Notes under the pieces: model-generated
The model's database searches: none
The model's input: only the letters and a program-made list of their open reading frames with translations
What the model was told of the DNA's origin: nothing
Part shown: positions 20,069 to 33,806 of the stretch, piece by piece
Layout of the letters: the number at the start of each line of letters is the position of its first letter
Numbering within the stretch: position 1 is the first letter of the stretch
NCBI GenBank assembly: GCA_031271975.1
Contig: JAISUR010000016.1
Coordinates: 1-64,000, forward strand
DNA from: Propionibacteriaceae bacterium
Lineage (GTDB): Bacteria > Actinomycetota > Actinomycetes > Propionibacteriales > Propionibacteriaceae
Length of the DNA stretch: 64,000 bases
Reading direction: 5' to 3'
Program-made: the position numbers and the translations under genes

Positions 20069-20515
20069 ATGAAGTTGATCCTGACTCAGACTGTCGACCA
20101 CGTCGGCATTCCCGGCGACATCGTCGAAGTGAAAGACGGCTACGGCCGCAACTACTTGCTGCCGCGCGGCTTTGCGATCGCGTGGAGCAAGGGCGCCGAG
20201 AAGCAGATCGCAGGCATCAAGCGCGCGCGGGACGCCCGGGAGATCCGTTCCGAGCAGCACGCCGCCGAGATCCGCGCCCAGTTGGAGGAGCTCAAGGTGA
20301 GCCTTCCGGCGCGCGCGGGCGAGTCCGGCCGCCTGTTCGGCGCGGTCACTCCGGCCGATGTGGCCCTGGCTGTGAAGAAGGCCGGTGGCCCCGCCATCGA
20401 CAAGCGCTCCGTCGAGATCGCCAAGCCGATCAAGACGCTCGGCAAGCACACCGTGGGCATCAAGCTCACCGCCGGTGTGGTCGCCCACATCGAGTTGGAT
20501 GTGGCCGCCGCGTAA
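20069..20515 (+). CDS. rplI: Ribosomal protein bL9
   Basis: This 148-residue large-subunit protein has the two-lobed L9 layout: an N-terminal domain (MKLILTQTVDHVGIPGDIVE, then GYGRNYLLPRG) , a long central helix and a C-terminal lobe. A GGAGG site precedes the ATG. It ends the S6 operon; dnaB, which often follows in related genomes, is not here. A very strong hairpin terminator follows at 20527-20567. Confidence 0.96.
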   Translation: MKLILTQTVDHVGIPGDIVEVKDGYGRNYLLPRGFAIAWSKGAEKQIAGIKRARDAREIRSEQHAAEIRAQLEELKVSLPARAGESGRLFGAVTPADVALAVKKAGGPAIDKRSVEIAKPIKTLGKHTVGIKLTAGVVAHIELDVAAA

Positions 20516-20573: not shown

Positions 20574-20633
20574 CCCGACAGCCACCACTTTTGCGAATGA
20601 ATCAGCAAAAGTGGTGGCTGTCGGGAAGTTTTT
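20574..20633 (+). terminator. Perfect 21-bp inverted repeat followed by a T-run
   Basis: The left arm (20574-20594) starts CCCGACAGCCACC, the right arm (20605-20625) ends GGTGGCTGTCGGG, and all 21 bp pair across a 10-base loop. TTTTT follows at 20629-20633. As RNA this is a textbook terminator; as DNA it could be an element end. It lies 7 bp after the rplI terminator and 18-25 bp before the ATPase start. Confidence 0.6.
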
Positions 20634-20650
20634 CTGATAGATTCGCAACT

Positions 20651-21856
20651 ATGGCTCTCACCGACCGCCCGCGCTACTTGGCTTGGTTGCGCCGATGGCA
20701 AGGCCATCAGCTCGTGAAAGTTGTCACTGGGGTGCGCAGGTGTGGCAAGTCGACATTGTTGGCGATGTTCCAAGCGGAACTGGCCGCCCAAGGCGTAGCG
20801 GCCAGGCAGATCATGTCGTTCAATCTGGAGGATCCCGACACTGAGTCCACGTTGAGCCAGGGGCTCGCGTTGTATCACGAGGTCAAGGCCAGCCTTGTGC
20901 CGGGCCAGACGACCTATGTGTTCATCGACGAGGCTCAACACTTGACGGAACTGGAGCGCACCGTCGCGGGTCTGGCGCTGCTACCTGATGTGGACCTCTA
21001 CATCACTGGGTCAAACTCGGGGTTTCTCAGCCAAGAGTTGGCTACCCGGCTCACCGGTCGTTATCAGGAACTCCACGTTCTGCCGCTGTCGTTTGCCGAA
21101 TCTGCCGGGGAGGTGTCGGTCGGGCAGCACGGCGAAGAACTCGATCATTACCTCAAGTTCGGAGGCTTTCCATACGTGGCCCGTCTCGCCCCAGACGAGA
21201 CCATGGTCCGAGAGTACTTGGGGGCCGTTGTGGACGCTGTCCTCCTCAAAGACGTTGCCCGGCGCCAAGCCTCAGTGAATGTGGCGGTGCTCAACACAGT
21301 CACGGACTTCATGTTCGACAACGTCGGCAATCAAGCTTCCATCAAACGAATCTCGGACTCACTGACGTCGGCGGGCCGGAAGATCGGACGTGGTGCGGTG
21401 CAGAACTATGTCGACGGGCTGGTGGAGGCGTATCTGCTCTACCCTGCGCAGCGATATGACATCCGTGGCAAGGCTCGACTCTCCAGCAACCCGAAGTACT
21501 ATCTCGTTGATCCTGGCTTGCGGCGTGCCCGCCTCGGATCTCGACATGCCGACCTCGGTCACGTGTTGGAAAATGTGGTATTTCTCGAGTTGTTGCGCCG
21601 CTATCGCCGGGTCGCCGTCGGCAAGCTTGATGTCGGTGAAGTGGATTTCGTGGTCGAAACCGATGATGGTCCTGCCTACTATCAGGTGGCACTCAACGTC
21701 GACGAGCCCAGCACCTTGGCTCGCGAACTGCGCAGCCTCGCCGCCATTCCGGGCCATGCCCCGCGTACCCTCTTGGTTGGCGACCACGCTTCGCGCGTCA
21801 CCTACGACGGCATTCCGCGGGTGAATGTTGTTGATTGGCTCTTGGAAGTCGCATGA
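20651..21856 (+). CDS. AAA-type ATPase with DUF4143 domain
   Basis: This 401-residue protein has an N-terminal P-loop ATPase and a C-terminal DUF4143 region. Walker A is GVRRCGKST (27-35) and Walker B is VFIDEAQH (about 92-100), followed by TGSNSGFLS, a sensor-like segment. The C-terminal part (about 195-401) ends in a nuclease-like fold region with the GKLDVGEVDFVVE pattern. The function of these scattered, often transferred ATPases is not established. The ATG at 20651 lies after the 21-bp hairpin; the longer reading would be encoded by that hairpin. The gene is bracketed by two identical 31-bp terminator copies and by eye is less GC-rich than its neighbours. Confidence 0.85.
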   Translation: MALTDRPRYLAWLRRWQGHQLVKVVTGVRRCGKSTLLAMFQAELAAQGVAARQIMSFNLEDPDTESTLSQGLALYHEVKASLVPGQTTYVFIDEAQHLTELERTVAGLALLPDVDLYITGSNSGFLSQELATRLTGRYQELHVLPLSFAESAGEVSVGQHGEELDHYLKFGGFPYVARLAPDETMVREYLGAVVDAVLLKDVARRQASVNVAVLNTVTDFMFDNVGNQASIKRISDSLTSAGRKIGRGAVQNYVDGLVEAYLLYPAQRYDIRGKARLSSNPKYYLVDPGLRRARLGSRHADLGHVLENVVFLELLRRYRRVAVGKLDVGEVDFVVETDDGPAYYQVALNVDEPSTLARELRSLAAIPGHAPRTLLVGDHASRVTYDGIPRVNVVDWLLEVA

Positions 21857-21949: not shown

Positions 21950-24900
21950 TTATGCCCAGTGGGCGTAGAGGGTGGTCGTGCCGGTGATCAACACGGTGTC
22001 GGTGGGGTTCCGCTTCGTGCCGCCGGAGGCCGCCGTGTACCAGCCTTGGAAGGTCTTGCCCTTCAGCTTCGGCGTGGGGAAGCTGCCGTACTGGCTGCCG
22101 TAGGTGTACTTCTTCGACTTCGTTGAGACGGATCCGCCGTTCGCGTCGAACTTGACCGTGTACTTCACGCCCTCCCAGCGGGCGATCAGCTGCTGCGAGC
22201 CGGCCACCTTGATCTTTGTGCCCTTGGCGATCTTCGAGCCGCCCGTCGCCGCCGTGTACCAACCCTTGAAGGTGTAGTTGGCGCGGGTGGTCGTCGGCAT
22301 CTCCGGAGCTTTCTGGCCGTAGGAGTAGACGATCTGTGTGCCCGCCGGCACGGCCGAGCCGCCATTCGCGGCGAACGTCAGCGTCTGCGTGTCGGAGACG
22401 GTGACCGTCCAGTTCCACGTCGCCGTGCCATAGGTGACGGTCAGCGTCTGGGCGCCCAGCTTCTTCGGATCGAACTTCGACACCTTGATGCTGGAATCCT
22501 TCAGCGGGATGTTGGCTGTGCTGGTGTCGGCGTACCGGACGGTGATGGTCGGGCTGGCCGACGGGTTCGGGCCGTAGGTCCGATCCAGGGCGGCGCCCTT
22601 CACCTGCGTGGGGCGCGCGTTGTTGATAGCCGTGATCTGCGAGACAGCCGACCAGTGCGCGTACAGCGTGGTGTTGACGGTGATCTTGACGGTGGCGCCG
22701 TCGTTGATCTTCGTGCCGCCGGTGGCCGCGGTGTACCAGCCGAGGAACTTGTCAGTGCCCTTGGTCGCGCCGGGCAGCGTGCCGTACGTGCCGTCGTAGG
22801 TGTACTTCTTCGACTTCGACTTGGCCTTGCCGCCGTTGGCGTCGAACTTCACCGTGTAGGTGTTGGCCTTCCAGTGCGCGTACACCGTGAAGGGCGCGGT
22901 CTGCGTGAGCTTCTTGCCCTCGGAGATCTTCGAGCCCTTCACCGGGTCGGTGTACCAACCCTGGAACGTGTAGCCCGCCATCGTCGCCGTCGCCAGCGAA
23001 CCCTTGGCCAGCTTCTCCTGGTAGCTGAAGCTCAACGTGGACTTGCTGATTGTGGCCGCCGGCGACTTCCCGGAGTCGTTCTTGTTGAACGTGATCACGC
23101 CCTGGGTGATGGTGTAGGCCTGGGTCACGCACTTGCCCCAAGGCTTGAAGCAAACCTGCATGTTGCCGGAAGCCTGGTTGTTGAAGTTCTTGACCTCAAC
23201 CTCTTTGCTGCTCAGCGACAGCGACTGCAGCGTCTTGCCATTGAAGTTGATGTTCAAGGTGCCCTGCTTCTTGTTCAGCGGCGCGCCCTTGAGGTAGTTG
23301 GTCTGCAGGCCGGACGCGGCCAGCGTGACCGCCGTGGTCGACGAAGCGAAGGCCTTGATGTTGAAGTTGCCGTAATACGCCGTCGCTCCATACCTGGCGT
23401 ACGTGGCCCGCAGATCCGTCCACGACTTGCCGTTGTAGGAGTAGAGGCTCTCTCCGGGGTTGGCCTTCACCCTGCCGACGTCCACGCTGGTTGTGGCGGC
23501 CTCGACCGGCATCCAACGAGTGCCGGAAGTGTAGACCACGACGGCGAACTTCTGGTTGGGGGTGAGCACCACTGGGGTGGTCAGGTCGACAGTCTTCAGG
23601 CCGGCGTAGGTGAACTTGCCGGAGATTGACGTGGACGAGCCGTTGATCTTCTGCAAGGTGCCGCTGTTCGGCTTCGCCGGGTTCGACAGGTTGGTGTAGA
23701 CCATCACCTTGTAGGAGACGCCCGGTTCGATTGCCGTGAAGGAGACGGCGTTGAGGTAGCCGCCGATGGAGCTGGCGGTGAAAACGTTCGACATGTACAG
23801 CTTCTTGGAAGTGCTCACCGAAATGCCGTCCTGCGTGCCGAACGGATCGTAAGAGTAGAACATGTCCGTCGCGTTGCTCAGCCCGTCAGAGGCCGTGGCG
23901 ACGTCGTAGTACACCGCCTCGTCGATGGACTTGTCGTAGTAGGACAGCCAGAAGTAGCCGCTATCGCCCCAACCGGTGCCCCAAGAGTTCTTCACCAAGA
24001 AAGCGCCGTTGCCGTCCGGCGTGTGGGTGAACTTGCTCTTGGAGAAGTTGTCGTCCCATCCCACGATGGTCACGGCGTGGTCGGCGCGGTAGGCCGGATT
24101 CGTCAGCGGATTCACATACGTGTAGTGGGCCTTGTTCGTCGGGTTGTAGAGCCCGTAACGGCCGTCCGGATCAGACGAGTAGCCGATGAACACGGCACCG
24201 TAGGTCTGCACCGCGGCTTTGATCGTCGTGACGTTCTTGGCCACGTACGAGTTCTTCGAGTTGCGCGGGGTGGGGAGGAAGTAGACGTTCTTGAGGTGGT
24301 AATCCGACGTGGTCAACGTCGAAGGCTTGGTCGCATACGCGCTGAACGGCCAGTCGGTTTCCTTCTCGACGCCGTTGAACTGCGACCACGCCGACGGCGC
24401 CGTCCAGCCGTTGCCGCCTTGGCTGGTGACCTGGCTGGTGGCCACGTTCATGCCGGTGCCGTTCCAGGACGCCCAGGCGGTGTGCCGCGGCGACAGGACT
24501 GTCGCCGAACTGGCGGCGCCGTTGCGCACAATGGCGGATTCGGCCGAGGCGGTCGAGGCGAAGGCCCAGCACCAACCAGTGCTGCCTTGGTCGCGCACCG
24601 GCGTCACCCATGTCGAGTGCGCCGTGCGCAAGTTGTAGCTTGCCGGCAGCGAAGCGGTCTTGAGATTGCCGGGCAGCGCATAGGAAGCGTCGTTGATTGC
24701 ATCCATGTTGATCCGGCTGGGGATATATCCATACTCGGACACTTCCGGCTGCGCGATGGCCTCGTTGACGGCCGTCATCGGGTTCGGATCCTCCGGCGCC
24801 GCAACTTCCGCCTCTGCTTCCTCGGCTGGAGCGACCGGGGTGCCGCCCTTGCCTATCACTTCGACGGTGGCTTCCGGATCGGGGGTTTCGGGGTCTGCCA

Positions 24901-24973
24901 TGGCTACGGCCGGGGTGCCGAATGCCAAGGCGATTGAAATCAGTGCGACCGCTAGACGATGGGTGGACTTCAT
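21950..24973 (-). CDS. Secreted papain-family (C1) cysteine protease with InlB-type repeats
   Basis: This 1007-residue exported protein has a signal peptide ending near AVAMADP (about residue 26). An acidic linker leads to a C1 peptidase domain with Q129, C135 (VRDQGSTGWCWAF), H299 (ADHAVTIVGWDD) and N329 (KNSWGTGWGDSGYF), so it should be active. A beta-rich, lectin-like region follows (about 370-560). Near the end are four InlB/Flg_new-type repeats of about 70 residues with GWYT...(L/V)YAHW patterns (about 632-702, 704-774, 865-936, 937-1007) and an Ig-like stretch between the second and third. It ends right after the last repeat, with no LPxTG motif or membrane anchor. A role in host or substrate attachment plus proteolysis is inferred. 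Confidence 0.88.
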   Translation of the reverse strand: MKSTHRLAVALISIALAFGTPAVAMADPETPDPEATVEVIGKGGTPVAPAEEAEAEVAAPEDPNPMTAVNEAIAQPEVSEYGYIPSRINMDAINDASYALPGNLKTASLPASYNLRTAHSTWVTPVRDQGSTGWCWAFASTASAESAIVRNGAASSATVLSPRHTAWASWNGTGMNVATSQVTSQGGNGWTAPSAWSQFNGVEKETDWPFSAYATKPSTLTTSDYHLKNVYFLPTPRNSKNSYVAKNVTTIKAAVQTYGAVFIGYSSDPDGRYGLYNPTNKAHYTYVNPLTNPAYRADHAVTIVGWDDNFSKSKFTHTPDGNGAFLVKNSWGTGWGDSGYFWLSYYDKSIDEAVYYDVATASDGLSNATDMFYSYDPFGTQDGISVSTSKKLYMSNVFTASSIGGYLNAVSFTAIEPGVSYKVMVYTNLSNPAKPNSGTLQKINGSSTSISGKFTYAGLKTVDLTTPVVLTPNQKFAVVVYTSGTRWMPVEAATTSVDVGRVKANPGESLYSYNGKSWTDLRATYARYGATAYYGNFNIKAFASSTTAVTLAASGLQTNYLKGAPLNKKQGTLNINFNGKTLQSLSLSSKEVEVKNFNNQASGNMQVCFKPWGKCVTQAYTITQGVITFNKNDSGKSPAATISKSTLSFSYQEKLAKGSLATATMAGYTFQGWYTDPVKGSKISEGKKLTQTAPFTVYAHWKANTYTVKFDANGGKAKSKSKKYTYDGTYGTLPGATKGTDKFLGWYTAATGGTKINDGATVKITVNTTLYAHWSAVSQITAINNARPTQVKGAALDRTYGPNPSASPTITVRYADTSTANIPLKDSSIKVSKFDPKKLGAQTLTVTYGTATWNWTVTVSDTQTLTFAANGGSAVPAGTQIVYSYGQKAPEMPTTTRANYTFKGWYTAATGGSKIAKGTKIKVAGSQQLIARWEGVKYTVKFDANGGSVSTKSKKYTYGSQYGSFPTPKLKGKTFQGWYTAASGGTKRNPTDTVLITGTTTLYAHWA

Positions 24974-26589: not shown

Positions 26590-28815
26590 GTGACTGAAAT
26601 CGATCTGGCCTCCATCGGTCAGGGCAAACGCGTCGGCATACTCACCAGCGGCGGCGACGCGCAAGGCATGAACGCCGCAGTCCGGGCAGTCGTACGCACG
26701 GCGATCAGCGCGGGGGCTGAGGTCTTCGCCATCTATGAAGGCTTCCAGGGCATGGTCGACGGCGGCGACGGCATCCGCCAGTTCGGCTGGGAGGACGTTT
26801 CCAGCGTGCTCAATCTCGGTGGCACCCTCATCGGCACGTTCCGCTCTCAGGATTTCCGCGAATACTCCGGCCGCGTCAAGGCCGCGCAGAATCTGCTCAA
26901 GAAGGGCATCGACCGCGTCGTCGTCATCGGCGGCGACGGCTCGCTCTCCGGCCTGAACGAATTCGCCCAAGAATGGCCGCAGATCCTCGCCGAGCTGGCC
27001 AAAGCCGGCAAGATCACCCAGAAGACGGCCAAGGCGCACCCGCAGCTCTATTTCGCCGGACTGGTCGGCTCCATCGACAACGACCTGGTGGGCACGGACA
27101 TGACCATCGGCGCCGACTCCGCGCTGCACCGCATCGTCCACGCCATCGACGCGCTGGCGTCCACTGCCGCCTCCCATCAGCGGGCGTTCGTGATCGAAGT
27201 CATGGGCCGCCACTGCGGCTACCTCGGGCTGATGTCGGCCATCGCGGGCGGCTGCGACTATGTGCTGATTCCCGAAGAGCCCCCGGAGCCGGGCTGGGAA
27301 GACCGCATGTGCGATGCGCTGCGGAAAGGCCGCGAAGGCGGGCGCCGCGACTCCATGGTCGTTGTCGCCGAGGGCGCCATCGACCGCGAGGGCAACCCCA
27401 TAACCAGCGACTATGTGCGCCGTGCCATCGAAGAACGCACCAAAGAGGACGCCCGCGTGACGATCCTCGGCCACGTGCAGCGCGGCGGCACCCCCTCCGC
27501 CTACGACCGTTGGGCCTCCACCTGGCTGGGCTACGAGGCGGCCATCGACGTGCTGCGCGCCGAGCCGGGCGCCGAAGGGATGGTGTTGGGCTTCCGGGGC
27601 AACCGCATCACCCGCGTTCCGCTGGTGCAGGCTGTCGAGGACACGCGTTCGGTGCCGAAGCTCATCGCGGCCGGCGACTATGGTGAAGCTCTGCGGCTGC
27701 GCGGCGGCTCGTTCGCCGAGATGGTGGACATCCTGGCCGAGTTGGTGGACCCTTCCGAGCCGCCCACCGGGCCTCAAGCCAAACGCGTCGCCGTCATGCA
27801 CGCCGGGGCGTTGGCTCCCGGTATGAACGTCGCGGCGCGCGCCGCCGTCCGCCTGGGCGTGGCGCGCGGCTTCAACATGCTGGGCATCCACGGCGGTTTC
27901 CCCGGCCTGGCCGAGGGCCGCATCTCCGAGCTGCGTTGGGCCGACGTGGAAGGCTGGATCGCCGCGGGGGCCGAGCTTGGCCTGCGCCGGGCCGTGCCTG
28001 GCGTCGAGGAACTGTATGCCGTGAGCCGGGCTCTCGAAGAGTCCAAAGTCGACGCGCTGCTGATCATCGGCGGCTGGGACGCCTACCAGGCGGCGTATCT
28101 CATGTCGTCGGAGGCTTCTCGCTACCCCGCGTTCCAGATACCGATAGTCTGCGTGCCCGCGTCCATAGACAACAACCTGCCCGGTTCCGAACTGGCCATC
28201 GGCGCGGACACCGCACTGAACGTCATCGCCGAGGCCATCGACCGGATCAAGATGTCCGGGCACGCCGCCACCAGGGCTTTCGTGGTGGAGACGATGGGGC
28301 GCTACTGCGGCTATTTGGCGGCCATGGGTGGCCTGTCCGGCGGCGCTGAGCGCATCTATCTGCACGAGGACGGCCTGACGCTGGCCAAGCTGGAAGCGGA
28401 CGTGCGCTGGCTCAACGAATCGTTCCGCAACGGCCGCAAGCTGTTCCTGGCCATCCGCAACGAATGCGCCAACCAGCTCTACACCACCGATTTCATCGCC
28501 CGTTTGCTCGAAGAGGAGGGCGGCGACCTCTACGACGTGCGCACCGCGATCTTGGGCCACGTGCAGCAAGGCGGCGACCCCACCCCGTTCGACCGGCTGC
28601 TGGCCACCCGGCTCGCATCCCGGGCGCTGACTGAGATCCAGGGCCAGTTCGACGCGGGCGAGGCGGAGTGTTCATATCTTGGGATGTCCCAGACGGGTAT
28701 TTCGCGCACGCCGATGTCGCGGCTCCCGGAGGAATTCGACTTGAAGTGGCAGCGCCCGAAGAAGCAATGGTGGATGCAGTTGAAGCCGGTGATCGAAGCG
28801 GTCAGCGACCACTGA
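26590..28815 (+). CDS. Two-domain 6-phosphofructokinase, eukaryotic type
   Basis: This 741-residue protein is two PFK domains in tandem, where bacterial PfkA is about 320-340. The N half is catalytic: GGDAQGMN near 20-27, ATP loop IGGDGSLSG (113-121), VGSIDNDLVGTDMTIGADSA with catalytic D163, then VMGRHCGYL and GHVQRGGTPSA. The C half (about 395-741) keeps the fold, but its ATP loop is IGGWDAY (493-499) and the catalytic block is SIDNN (525-529), so it is probably regulatory. From memory these motifs, and the end PKKQWWMQLKP, follow animal PFK-1 across the whole length. It would form fructose 1,6-bisphosphate from ATP; PPi dependence is unlikely given GGDG. The start is GTG 26590. Confidence 0.9.
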   Translation: MTEIDLASIGQGKRVGILTSGGDAQGMNAAVRAVVRTAISAGAEVFAIYEGFQGMVDGGDGIRQFGWEDVSSVLNLGGTLIGTFRSQDFREYSGRVKAAQNLLKKGIDRVVVIGGDGSLSGLNEFAQEWPQILAELAKAGKITQKTAKAHPQLYFAGLVGSIDNDLVGTDMTIGADSALHRIVHAIDALASTAASHQRAFVIEVMGRHCGYLGLMSAIAGGCDYVLIPEEPPEPGWEDRMCDALRKGREGGRRDSMVVVAEGAIDREGNPITSDYVRRAIEERTKEDARVTILGHVQRGGTPSAYDRWASTWLGYEAAIDVLRAEPGAEGMVLGFRGNRITRVPLVQAVEDTRSVPKLIAAGDYGEALRLRGGSFAEMVDILAELVDPSEPPTGPQAKRVAVMHAGALAPGMNVAARAAVRLGVARGFNMLGIHGGFPGLAEGRISELRWADVEGWIAAGAELGLRRAVPGVEELYAVSRALEESKVDALLIIGGWDAYQAAYLMSSEASRYPAFQIPIVCVPASIDNNLPGSELAIGADTALNVIAEAIDRIKMSGHAATRAFVVETMGRYCGYLAAMGGLSGGAERIYLHEDGLTLAKLEADVRWLNESFRNGRKLFLAIRNECANQLYTTDFIARLLEEEGGDLYDVRTAILGHVQQGGDPTPFDRLLATRLASRALTEIQGQFDAGEAECSYLGMSQTGISRTPMSRLPEEFDLKWQRPKKQWWMQLKPVIEAVSDH

Positions 28816-32114: not shown

Positions 32115-33806
32115 TTACACGGCCCCGACCACCATGGCAAACGACTTCGCCCCCGGATCCGGCGTACCCACGGAGCGGTCGCCGTGGAGTTTCGCGCGGC
32201 CGCGCGTCGCGCCGTATTCGGCTGTCTGCTCCGCGGCGGCGTTGGCGGCTGCGGCGGCTGCCTTCCAGGCGCCAGAGACGTCCCCTGCGGCGAGTTCGGC
32301 CAGCAACGTGTCCACGAACGGGACCAAGGCATCGACCATCGTCTTCTCGCCGACGCTCGCGCCGCCGCGTTCCAGCACGGTATCGCGATAGGCGGTGGCG
32401 GCCGCGGCGAGCGCGGCGGCGGACAGGTCTTGCTCGTCGCCCAGTGACTGCCCGGCGGCCACCAAGCCTGCGCCCCACAGTGCCCCTGACGTGCCCCCGG
32501 CGATGTCGGACCAGGCGTGCCCGGCGGCGGATAGGGTCGTGCCCAAACCCGCGCCTTTTTCAGCGGCCGTCTGGGCCGCGACGGCGGCTGCCCCGGCGCC
32601 CTTGTTCATGCCGACGCCGTGATCGCCATCTCCGGCGACCGCGTCGATGTCGCCCAGCAGCTTCTCGGCCGCCGCCATCGCCGCGGCGACTTTGCCCGCG
32701 ATCCCGGCCAGCGCCTGCGCCAGGGCTTGCGAAGCCTCGGATGCGGGCGGGATCTCGCCCACGGATTCGCCCAGCCCGGCGACCGGCGCAGTGCGCAATT
32801 CGCCCGGGGCCACCTGGCCGCGCGAGAACGACACGATGTCGGCGGGAGCCAGCCACAGGCGTTCCAACTCGTCGTCGAGATAGGTCAGCGTGACGGAGAA
32901 TCCCTCCATGTCCAGCGAGGTGACCAACTCGCCGACGACCGGGGTCACTGGCGTCATGCCCACCGCCACGAGGCGCTGCGCGACGCGGCGGTAGACAACC
33001 GCCAACTCGTCGTACTTCGTGCCGCCCAATCCGTTGACGAGCACGGCGACGCGCTGCCCGGCTGCCGGAGCGCGCTCGGCGAAAAGCCCGTCCATGAGGA
33101 TGTCGGTGGCCGAATCAGCCGTGGTCACGTCCACTTCGTCGATGCCGGGCTCGCCGTGAATGCCCAGGCCGACAGCCATCCGGCCCTCCGGCACGACGAA
33201 GAGGGGATCGTCCGCGCCTGGCAGCGTGCAGGCCCCGAAGGCCACGCCGAACGAACGCGTTGCGGCGTTAGCCTTGACGAAAACGCGCTCCACCTCGTCA
33301 AGGCTGAGCCCTTCCTCGGCCGCCGCACCCGCGATCTTGTGCACGATGAACGCTCCGGCGATGCCACGGCGTTGCAGATGCTGCTCGGACGTGCCGGAGA
33401 CGATGTCGTCTGTGACGGCCCGCATCCGCACGTCGATGCCCTCGCTGCGCAACACCTCGGCCGCAGCCCCGAAATGCAGGATGTCGCCCTGGTAGTTGAT
33501 GGGCGCGAACAGAATGCCGCCGCCGTTGTCCGCCGCCCGTGAGACGGCCAGGATTTGCGCCTCGGACGGCGAAGAGAAGATGTTGCCGCAGACCGCGCCG
33601 TGCAGGAATCCCGGTCCGACCCAACCAGCGAAAGCGGGGAAGTGGCCCGACCCGCCACCCGAAATGACGGCTACCTGCCCAGCCGGGCATCGCGTCGCCC
33701 GCGCCATGCCGGCCCCGGTGACGGCCACCGCCCTAGTCTGTGCGGACGCGAAGCCTTCCAGGGCCTCTTTTACGAAGTCAGCGGGAGAATTGACCATTCT
33801 CGTCAT
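32115..33806 (-). CDS. Fused dihydroxyacetone kinase (DhaK-DhaL)
   Basis: The 563 residues join a DhaK substrate domain (1-330) and a DhaL nucleotide domain (about 365-563) in one chain, as in ATP-dependent kinases. DhaK shows ISGGGSGHFPAFAGW, GNIFSSPS and the His that binds the substrate covalently, near 217 in GIHGEPG. DhaL has GDGDHGVGMNKG (about 392-403), whose aspartates hold Mg-ATP, then GGTSGALWG. It phosphorylates dihydroxyacetone or a related short ketose such as erythrulose. No PTS protein DhaM or glycerol dehydrogenase is adjacent. The next gene downstream (VanY) is 28 bp away and unrelated. Confidence 0.92.
   Translation of the reverse strand: MTRMVNSPADFVKEALEGFASAQTRAVAVTGAGMARATRCPAGQVAVISGGGSGHFPAFAGWVGPGFLHGAVCGNIFSSPSEAQILAVSRAADNGGGILFAPINYQGDILHFGAAAEVLRSEGIDVRMRAVTDDIVSGTSEQHLQRRGIAGAFIVHKIAGAAAEEGLSLDEVERVFVKANAATRSFGVAFGACTLPGADDPLFVVPEGRMAVGLGIHGEPGIDEVDVTTADSATDILMDGLFAERAPAAGQRVAVLVNGLGGTKYDELAVVYRRVAQRLVAVGMTPVTPVVGELVTSLDMEGFSVTLTYLDDELERLWLAPADIVSFSRGQVAPGELRTAPVAGLGESVGEIPPASEASQALAQALAGIAGKVAAAMAAAEKLLGDIDAVAGDGDHGVGMNKGAGAAAVAAQTAAEKGAGLGTTLSAAGHAWSDIAGGTSGALWGAGLVAAGQSLGDEQDLSAAALAAAATAYRDTVLERGGASVGEKTMVDALVPFVDTLLAELAAGDVSGAWKAAAAAANAAAEQTAEYGATRGRAKLHGDRSVGTPDPGAKSFAMVVGAV

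Follow-up and report, generated by a model that had tools for sequence, protein, structure and literature searches.

The window analysed here, a stretch of 64,000 nucleotides from a Propionibacteriaceae genome, carries on its plus strand an intact, uninterrupted open reading frame (positions 26590..28815, stop codon included) that starts with GTG and codes for a double-domain 6-phosphofructokinase (PFK) of 741 residues. The initial annotation had described the product as two fused PFK domains of the animal/fungal type, and comparison with curated families bears this out. Pfam PF00365 is matched twice (2.1e-180), and the NCBIfam model of the eukaryotic-type PFK-1, TIGR02478 (6PF1K_euk), is matched over its full two-domain length with 971.6 bits, above the curated cut-off of 708.4 (residues 13-741 on model positions 1-742 of 744). 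With its two domains and 741 residues the protein falls outside the single-domain PfkA family (TIGR02482), defined by one PFK domain of ca. 320 residues. Among solved structures the best matches by sequence are human PFKP, PFKM and PFKL (711-742 bits, PFKP being the highest with 742), far more than single-domain bacterial PfkA, which reaches about 220 bits; the identity to human PFKP is 47%, while human PFKP and yeast Pfk1 share only 44%. Every one of the animal-type motif blocks that had been quoted along the chain was located, namely VGSIDNDLVGTDMTIG, VMGRHCGYL and GHVQRGGTPSA in the N half, IGGWDAY, SIDNN and GHVQQGGDPTPFDR in the C half, and the closing QWWMQLKP. Judged from its sequence, the gene very probably (we would say about 0.87) encodes an ATP-dependent PFK-1 of the eukaryotic fusion type, in which the N half would be the catalytic one and the C half is predicted to sense sugar phosphates.

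Three parts can be delimited within the gene: the N half, a catalytic PFK domain (residues 13-335, 26626..27594, plus strand), the inter-domain linker (residues 336-397, 27595..27780, plus strand) and the C half, a regulatory PFK domain (residues 398-741, 27781..28812, plus strand). The eukaryotic PFK-1 (human PFKP, PFKL and PFKM, yeast Pfk1 and Pfk2; TIGR02478, by name also IPR009161) likewise joins two PFK domains in a single chain and shares with the window protein the catalytic N half, a C half devoid of the ATP/Mg aspartate and with Arg252 changed to Gln, a homologous linker, the fold and the duplication itself. The AlphaFold model (mean pLDDT 90.6, pTM 0.92) can be overlaid on human PFKL and PFKP along 719-733 residues with an rmsd of 1.5-1.8 Å for most entries and Z scores of 46.4-48.3 (ca. 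47% identity to PFKP), and Foldseek gives TM values of 0.92-0.96 against human PFK. Single-domain PfkA of the E. coli and Bacillus type (TIGR02482) resembles the N half in fold and catalytic residues (ca. 40% identity, Z ca. 30), but consists of one domain of about 320 residues, works as a homotetramer with a single type of effector site, and lies outside the clade formed by the double PFKs. There are also differences with the eukaryotic enzymes at both ends of the chain. The length of 741 residues leaves no space for the N-terminal glyoxalase-like extension of the yeast PFK-1. At the other end, bacterial double PFKs typically have some 12 residues after the QWWxxL motif, compared to some 29 in the 812-residue human PFKP construct (as deduced from chain lengths), and the window protein does not carry a vertebrate-type regulatory tail of about 20 residues past the conserved end. 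The human tail, which is said to stabilise the T state of the human enzyme, is thus missing or short in the bacterial doubles.

The gene is flanked by a methyltransferase gene on the minus strand and by a gene on the plus strand that matches no Pfam family. A vanY carboxypeptidase gene is located 2.5 kb downstream in the window, and since vanY directly adjoins the double PFK gene in many Propionibacteriaceae, the arrangement supports vertical descent with local rearrangement. Close by (32115-33806, minus strand) there is a gene for a dihydroxyacetone kinase in which DhaK and DhaL (Dak1 and Dak2) are fused. On the other side, positions 21950-24973 of the minus strand code for a secreted-looking protein of 1007 residues with a papain-type C1 peptidase domain, Lectin_like and Big_3 domains and four Listeria-Bacteroides (Flg_new) repeats, a surface protease layout that is unusual for an actinobacterium. 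A slightly lower GC stretch contains a gene for an AAA_14/DUF4143 ATPase (20591-21856, plus strand) directly downstream of a ribosomal protein L9-like gene (20069-20515). The genome as a whole (2.70 Mb, 99.9% complete) has two further, single-domain PFK genes, so that glycolysis need not depend mainly on the double PFK. One of them is a clear pyrophosphate (PPi)-dependent PFK (PRK06555, 697 bits). The second (C40:29631-30587; L002:1483-2610) has LLGGGG where Asp103 normally stands and sits on a branch of length 1.4; at C40:29631-30587 it scores below the cut-off of the PFK_mixed model and above that of the broader PRK03202 subfamily.

Double PFKs are a standing bacterial family with a patchy spread, made up of two clades plus transfers. 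The TIGR02478 cut-off was exceeded in 27 of 30 genomes of the same genus (including that of the window), two more having interrupted copies, and in three of six other genera of the family, while none of 24 genomes of the same order outside the family reached the cut-off. Samples at the level of the phylum gave 25 carriers among 396 Actinomycetota and one among 398 Pseudomonadota, the latter being the query centre itself; within the families of Competibacter (Competibacteraceae) and Accumulibacter (Rhodocyclaceae) the figures were 29 of 39 and 3 of 101 genomes. In the scan of public genomes, the nearest 80 of 419 matches included the actinobacterial genera Micropruina, Propionicimonas, Propioniciclava, Arsenicicoccus, Cutibacterium, Tessaracoccus and Aestuariimicrobium and an Actinomyces, and outside the Actinomycetota Candidatus Competibacter, Contendobacter, Candidatus Accumulibacter and Propionivibrio. 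Clade A comprises Propionibacteriaceae and relatives, Arsenicicoccus, Actinomyces and the Competibacter/Accumulibacter sequences, and clade B other families of Actinomycetota; the two are ca. 50% identical. The presence of orthologues throughout the genus, together with purifying selection (see below), rules out chance, contamination or an assembly fusion as the source of the double gene. In two genomes (G009 and G879) the double PFK appears split into two ORFs, and gene fission was discarded as an explanation, because a frameshift within continuous homology accounts for one of the splits and the other spans a scaffold gap (a run of N); both are probably assembly problems. The plasmid matches listed were to single-domain PfkA only, and the pattern matches on viral contigs included no relative of the double PFK. 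The NCBI model labels these bacterial proteins simply as '6-phosphofructokinase', and our search of the openly accessible literature found no paper on bacterial double PFKs, so that there may be an earlier mention.

To compare the active sites of both halves we have used the residue numbering of E. coli PfkA. The N half was claimed to retain all the catalytic residues, and the residue alignment agrees: D116 (Asp103), G117 (Gly104), D163 (Asp127), D165 (Asp129), R198, M205, E261, R289, H295 and R298 are all in place. The catalytic motif IDND, with the general base and the Mg-binding aspartate (Asp163-Asn-Asp165, 27076..27084, plus strand), is the D-x-D found in the N halves of 120 of 120 bacterial and six of six eukaryotic enzymes. 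Gly104, Asp127, Asp129, Arg162, Met169, Glu222, Arg243, His249 and Arg252 are invariant in all the bacterial N halves compared, and Asp103 is present in 119 of the 120, the single exception being a D103N change in clade A. PPi-dependent PFKs carry a residue larger than glycine at position 104 or 124, and the N half has Gly at both. Gly at this donor-selecting position (104/124) corresponds to the ATP-using state (PMC12203962), and on these grounds we infer that the phosphoryl donor is ATP rather than pyrophosphate. The PPi-dependent enzyme encoded in the same genome (PRK06555) belongs to the same superfamily and has Asp at position 104 (GGDD) instead.

The active site of the C half, on the contrary, has decayed. 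The ATP/Mg loop is gone and most of the sugar-phosphate pocket is kept. Trp496 (28075..28077, plus strand) replaces Asp103, giving IGGWDAY in place of IGGDGS, and Asp527-Asn-Asn529 (28168..28176, plus strand) retains the catalytic-base Asp127 and has lost the Mg-binding Asp129. Both the loss of the GGDG loop and the survival of the first aspartate in SIDNN had been pointed out in the initial annotation, the latter as a departure from the animal enzymes, rightly so, given that the six eukaryotic sequences compared (animals and yeasts, taken from PDB alignments) all have Ser at position 127. Asp103 has disappeared from every C half, being replaced by W, F, Y or L in 119 of 120 bacterial sequences, by R in the remaining one and by F in the six eukaryotic ones. 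The Asp127/Asp129 pair is D-x-N in clade A (98/98), [NST]-x-D in clade B (22/22) and S-x-N in eukaryotes (6/6), counts that come from related sequences and stand for three clade states rather than 126 independent events. Arg252, which binds fructose 6-phosphate (F6P) in E. coli, is replaced by Gln660 (28567..28569, plus strand), a mark of bacterial and eukaryotic C halves alike (Gln in 112/120 and 6/6, respectively), with Arg in every N half and single-domain enzyme compared. Since all the outgroups have D-x-D and both losses cannot be put down to shared descent however the three groups are joined, by parsimony the C half of the common ancestor should have kept both Asp127 and Asp129, and at least one Asp would have been lost twice. 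The suggestion that this C half represents an early or a separate stage of the catalytic/regulatory split can be narrowed down accordingly: a separate stage fits better than an early one, because in clade B it is Asp127 that was lost and Asp129 that stayed, the reverse of clade A.

The linker and the two halves tell how the bacterial and eukaryotic fusions are related. Part of the linker (PLVQAV..T..V...I..GDY..A..LRGGSF) has its homologue in the linker of eukaryotic enzymes, with 16-19 identities over 50 residues to each of the six eukaryotic enzymes and 23-24 to distant bacterial doubles, and ends in the LRGGSF-like block. A phylogeny of each half had been proposed as a check, and for this purpose the proteins were cut at residue 398 and their halves aligned together with 19 single-domain PFKs. 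In the resulting tree one clade (bootstrap/SH-aLRT 100/99) held the N halves of bacteria and eukaryotes and another (100/100) their C halves, each half thus grouping with its eukaryotic PFK-1 counterpart. The two clades were sisters (97/90), with the single-domain PFKs outside. As the C halves are on a long branch (1.62), attraction could account in part for the pairing of the two clades; the N with N and C with C groupings are independent of that. Besides R252Q in the C halves, Trp54 is a shared derived residue that agrees with these groupings. It is found in the C halves of clades A, B and eukaryotes and in the N halves of clade A and eukaryotes, not in those of clade B; none of 37 single-domain enzymes, nor E. 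coli, has it. As a separate bacterial duplication is rejected (see below) and the linker is homologous, the sequences show that bacterial and eukaryotic double PFKs descend from one shared duplication and fusion.

As to the direction of transfer, eukaryotes may have received the enzyme from bacteria or the reverse; both are compatible with the trees and we claim neither. With single-domain PFKs as outgroups, the N-half tree places the eukaryotes beside A plus B, the bacterial N halves forming one clade (87/77; 96/78 in the halves tree), and joining the eukaryotes inside to clade A or B is not rejected (AU p 0.198 and 0.218). The C-half portion of the halves tree leaves clade A, clade B and eukaryotes unresolved among themselves. 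The initial annotation had left room for both a eukaryotic transfer and a bacterial origin, and with AU p values of ca. 0.2 both alternatives still stand. A bacterial origin is weakly favoured because the nearest single-domain relatives in our sample are bacterial (Actinomycetota and Meiothermus) and because eukaryotic double PFKs are not known outside animals, fungi and amoebozoans. A scenario to which we give even odds is that duplication, fusion and division of labour occurred in bacteria, from which the complete two-domain enzyme was passed to the ancestor of animals and fungi. The ancestral C half would by then have lost Asp103 and Arg252 and kept Asp127 and Asp129, the last catalytic residues being lost afterwards in a different way in each of the three lineages, and its pocket would be an older sugar-phosphate sensor, later adapted to fructose 2,6-bisphosphate. 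The fusion might also have arisen in a eukaryote, passed long ago to bacteria and then spread through Actinomycetota, Competibacteraceae and Rhodocyclaceae. The patchiness seen in the two phylum samples would agree with such a history, and a single transfer would give the one clade of bacterial N halves beside the eukaryotic ones. Nevertheless, we regard it as rather unlikely, because the parent type of gene is bacterial in our sample, clades A and B are nearly as distant from each other as human from yeast, and one of the two catalytic Asp residues survives in bacterial C halves but neither of them in eukaryotic ones.

The proposed working of the enzyme can be outlined as follows. The N half would be the active kinase, converting F6P and ATP into fructose 1,6-bisphosphate (FBP) and ADP, and the C half a PFK domain without catalysis of its own, which would bind a sugar phosphate in its former sugar site and adjust the activity of the N half; the last steps in the decay of the active site of this half would have been taken separately by the bacterial and the eukaryotic enzymes. 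Selection argues that the C half is functional, since comparison with near relatives shows it to be under purifying selection to a similar degree as the N half (dN 0.15-0.31, dS 0.74-1.07 where unsaturated). Its former F6P pocket keeps R162, M169, E222 and R243, invariant throughout, and H249 (119/120 bacteria), the same set that makes up the sugar effector pocket of the eukaryotic C half (PMC12203962). The change of Arg252 to Gln indicates an altered pocket, as in the eukaryotes, which still bind sugar bisphosphates there. Might the C half rather be a second active site, working or half-active? The retention of Asp527 in all clade A C halves along with most F6P-binding residues could be taken that way. 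This is very improbable, given that the Mg/ATP-binding Asp103 and the Mg-binding Asp129 are both gone, Gly11 is Ala in the window protein and clade B has lost Asp127 instead; the loss of Asp127 in the sister bacterial clade also means that this residue is not needed for the general role of the C half. We favour, then, a C half that has lost kinase activity, as its residues suggest, and an allosteric use of its pocket. The ligand is most likely F6P or FBP, because no PFK-2 was found and because in the human PFKP structure 4XZ2 FBP occupies the regulatory sugar sites, in the same pocket (PMC12203962). Fructose 2,6-bisphosphate is probably not used, since the genome (99.9% complete) has no PFK-2 domain (PF01591), a difference with organisms having the eukaryotic PFK-1.

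Two other histories can be set aside. An independent tandem duplication within Actinomycetota, convergent on the eukaryotic layout, could draw on the fact that the closest outgroups of the double PFKs include single-domain enzymes from several Actinomycetota families. The halves of the bacterial proteins would then be each other's closest relatives among actinobacterial PFKs, the outcome named beforehand as decisive against a shared origin, and they are not: forcing the bacterial N and C halves together lowers the lnL by 158 (AU p = 2.1e-5), each half joins its eukaryotic counterpart at 100, and the linker and R252Q are common to bacteria and eukaryotes, so that this origin is rejected on present data and we give it hardly any credit. 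The idea that the lineage of the window took up the gene recently from an animal or fungus has nothing in its favour save a general similarity to human PFKP and is refuted by the nesting of the gene deep among Propionibacteriaceae sequences, its presence throughout the genus and beyond, the vanY neighbour conserved in relatives and the identity of 47% to human compared to 60-80% to clade A kin, which leaves it a practically negligible chance.

PFK-1 is a textbook case of a regulatory domain derived from gene duplication, and the two-part form is ascribed to animals and yeast. A 2025 review still presents the regulatory domain as made by gene duplication in eukaryotes (PMC12203962). That the same fusion has a large branch in bacteria implies that the event was not specific to eukaryotes and is of greater age or wider distribution than in the usual account. 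What is new is therefore the origin shared with eukaryotes and the three-way pattern of decay, and not a new class of enzyme. The bacterial doubles provide natural comparisons in which the loss of catalytic residues has been different and partly complementary, and make two old questions testable: where the fusion was born, and what the regulatory half senses where fructose 2,6-bisphosphate probably cannot be made.

A last observation concerns the movement of the gene among bacteria. The doubles of Competibacteraceae and of some Accumulibacter and Propionivibrio sit inside the otherwise actinobacterial clade A. Together with Micropruina, these are unrelated sludge bacteria that store glycogen or polyphosphate, which suggests that this glycolytic enzyme has been transferred among organisms with a common habitat and metabolism.
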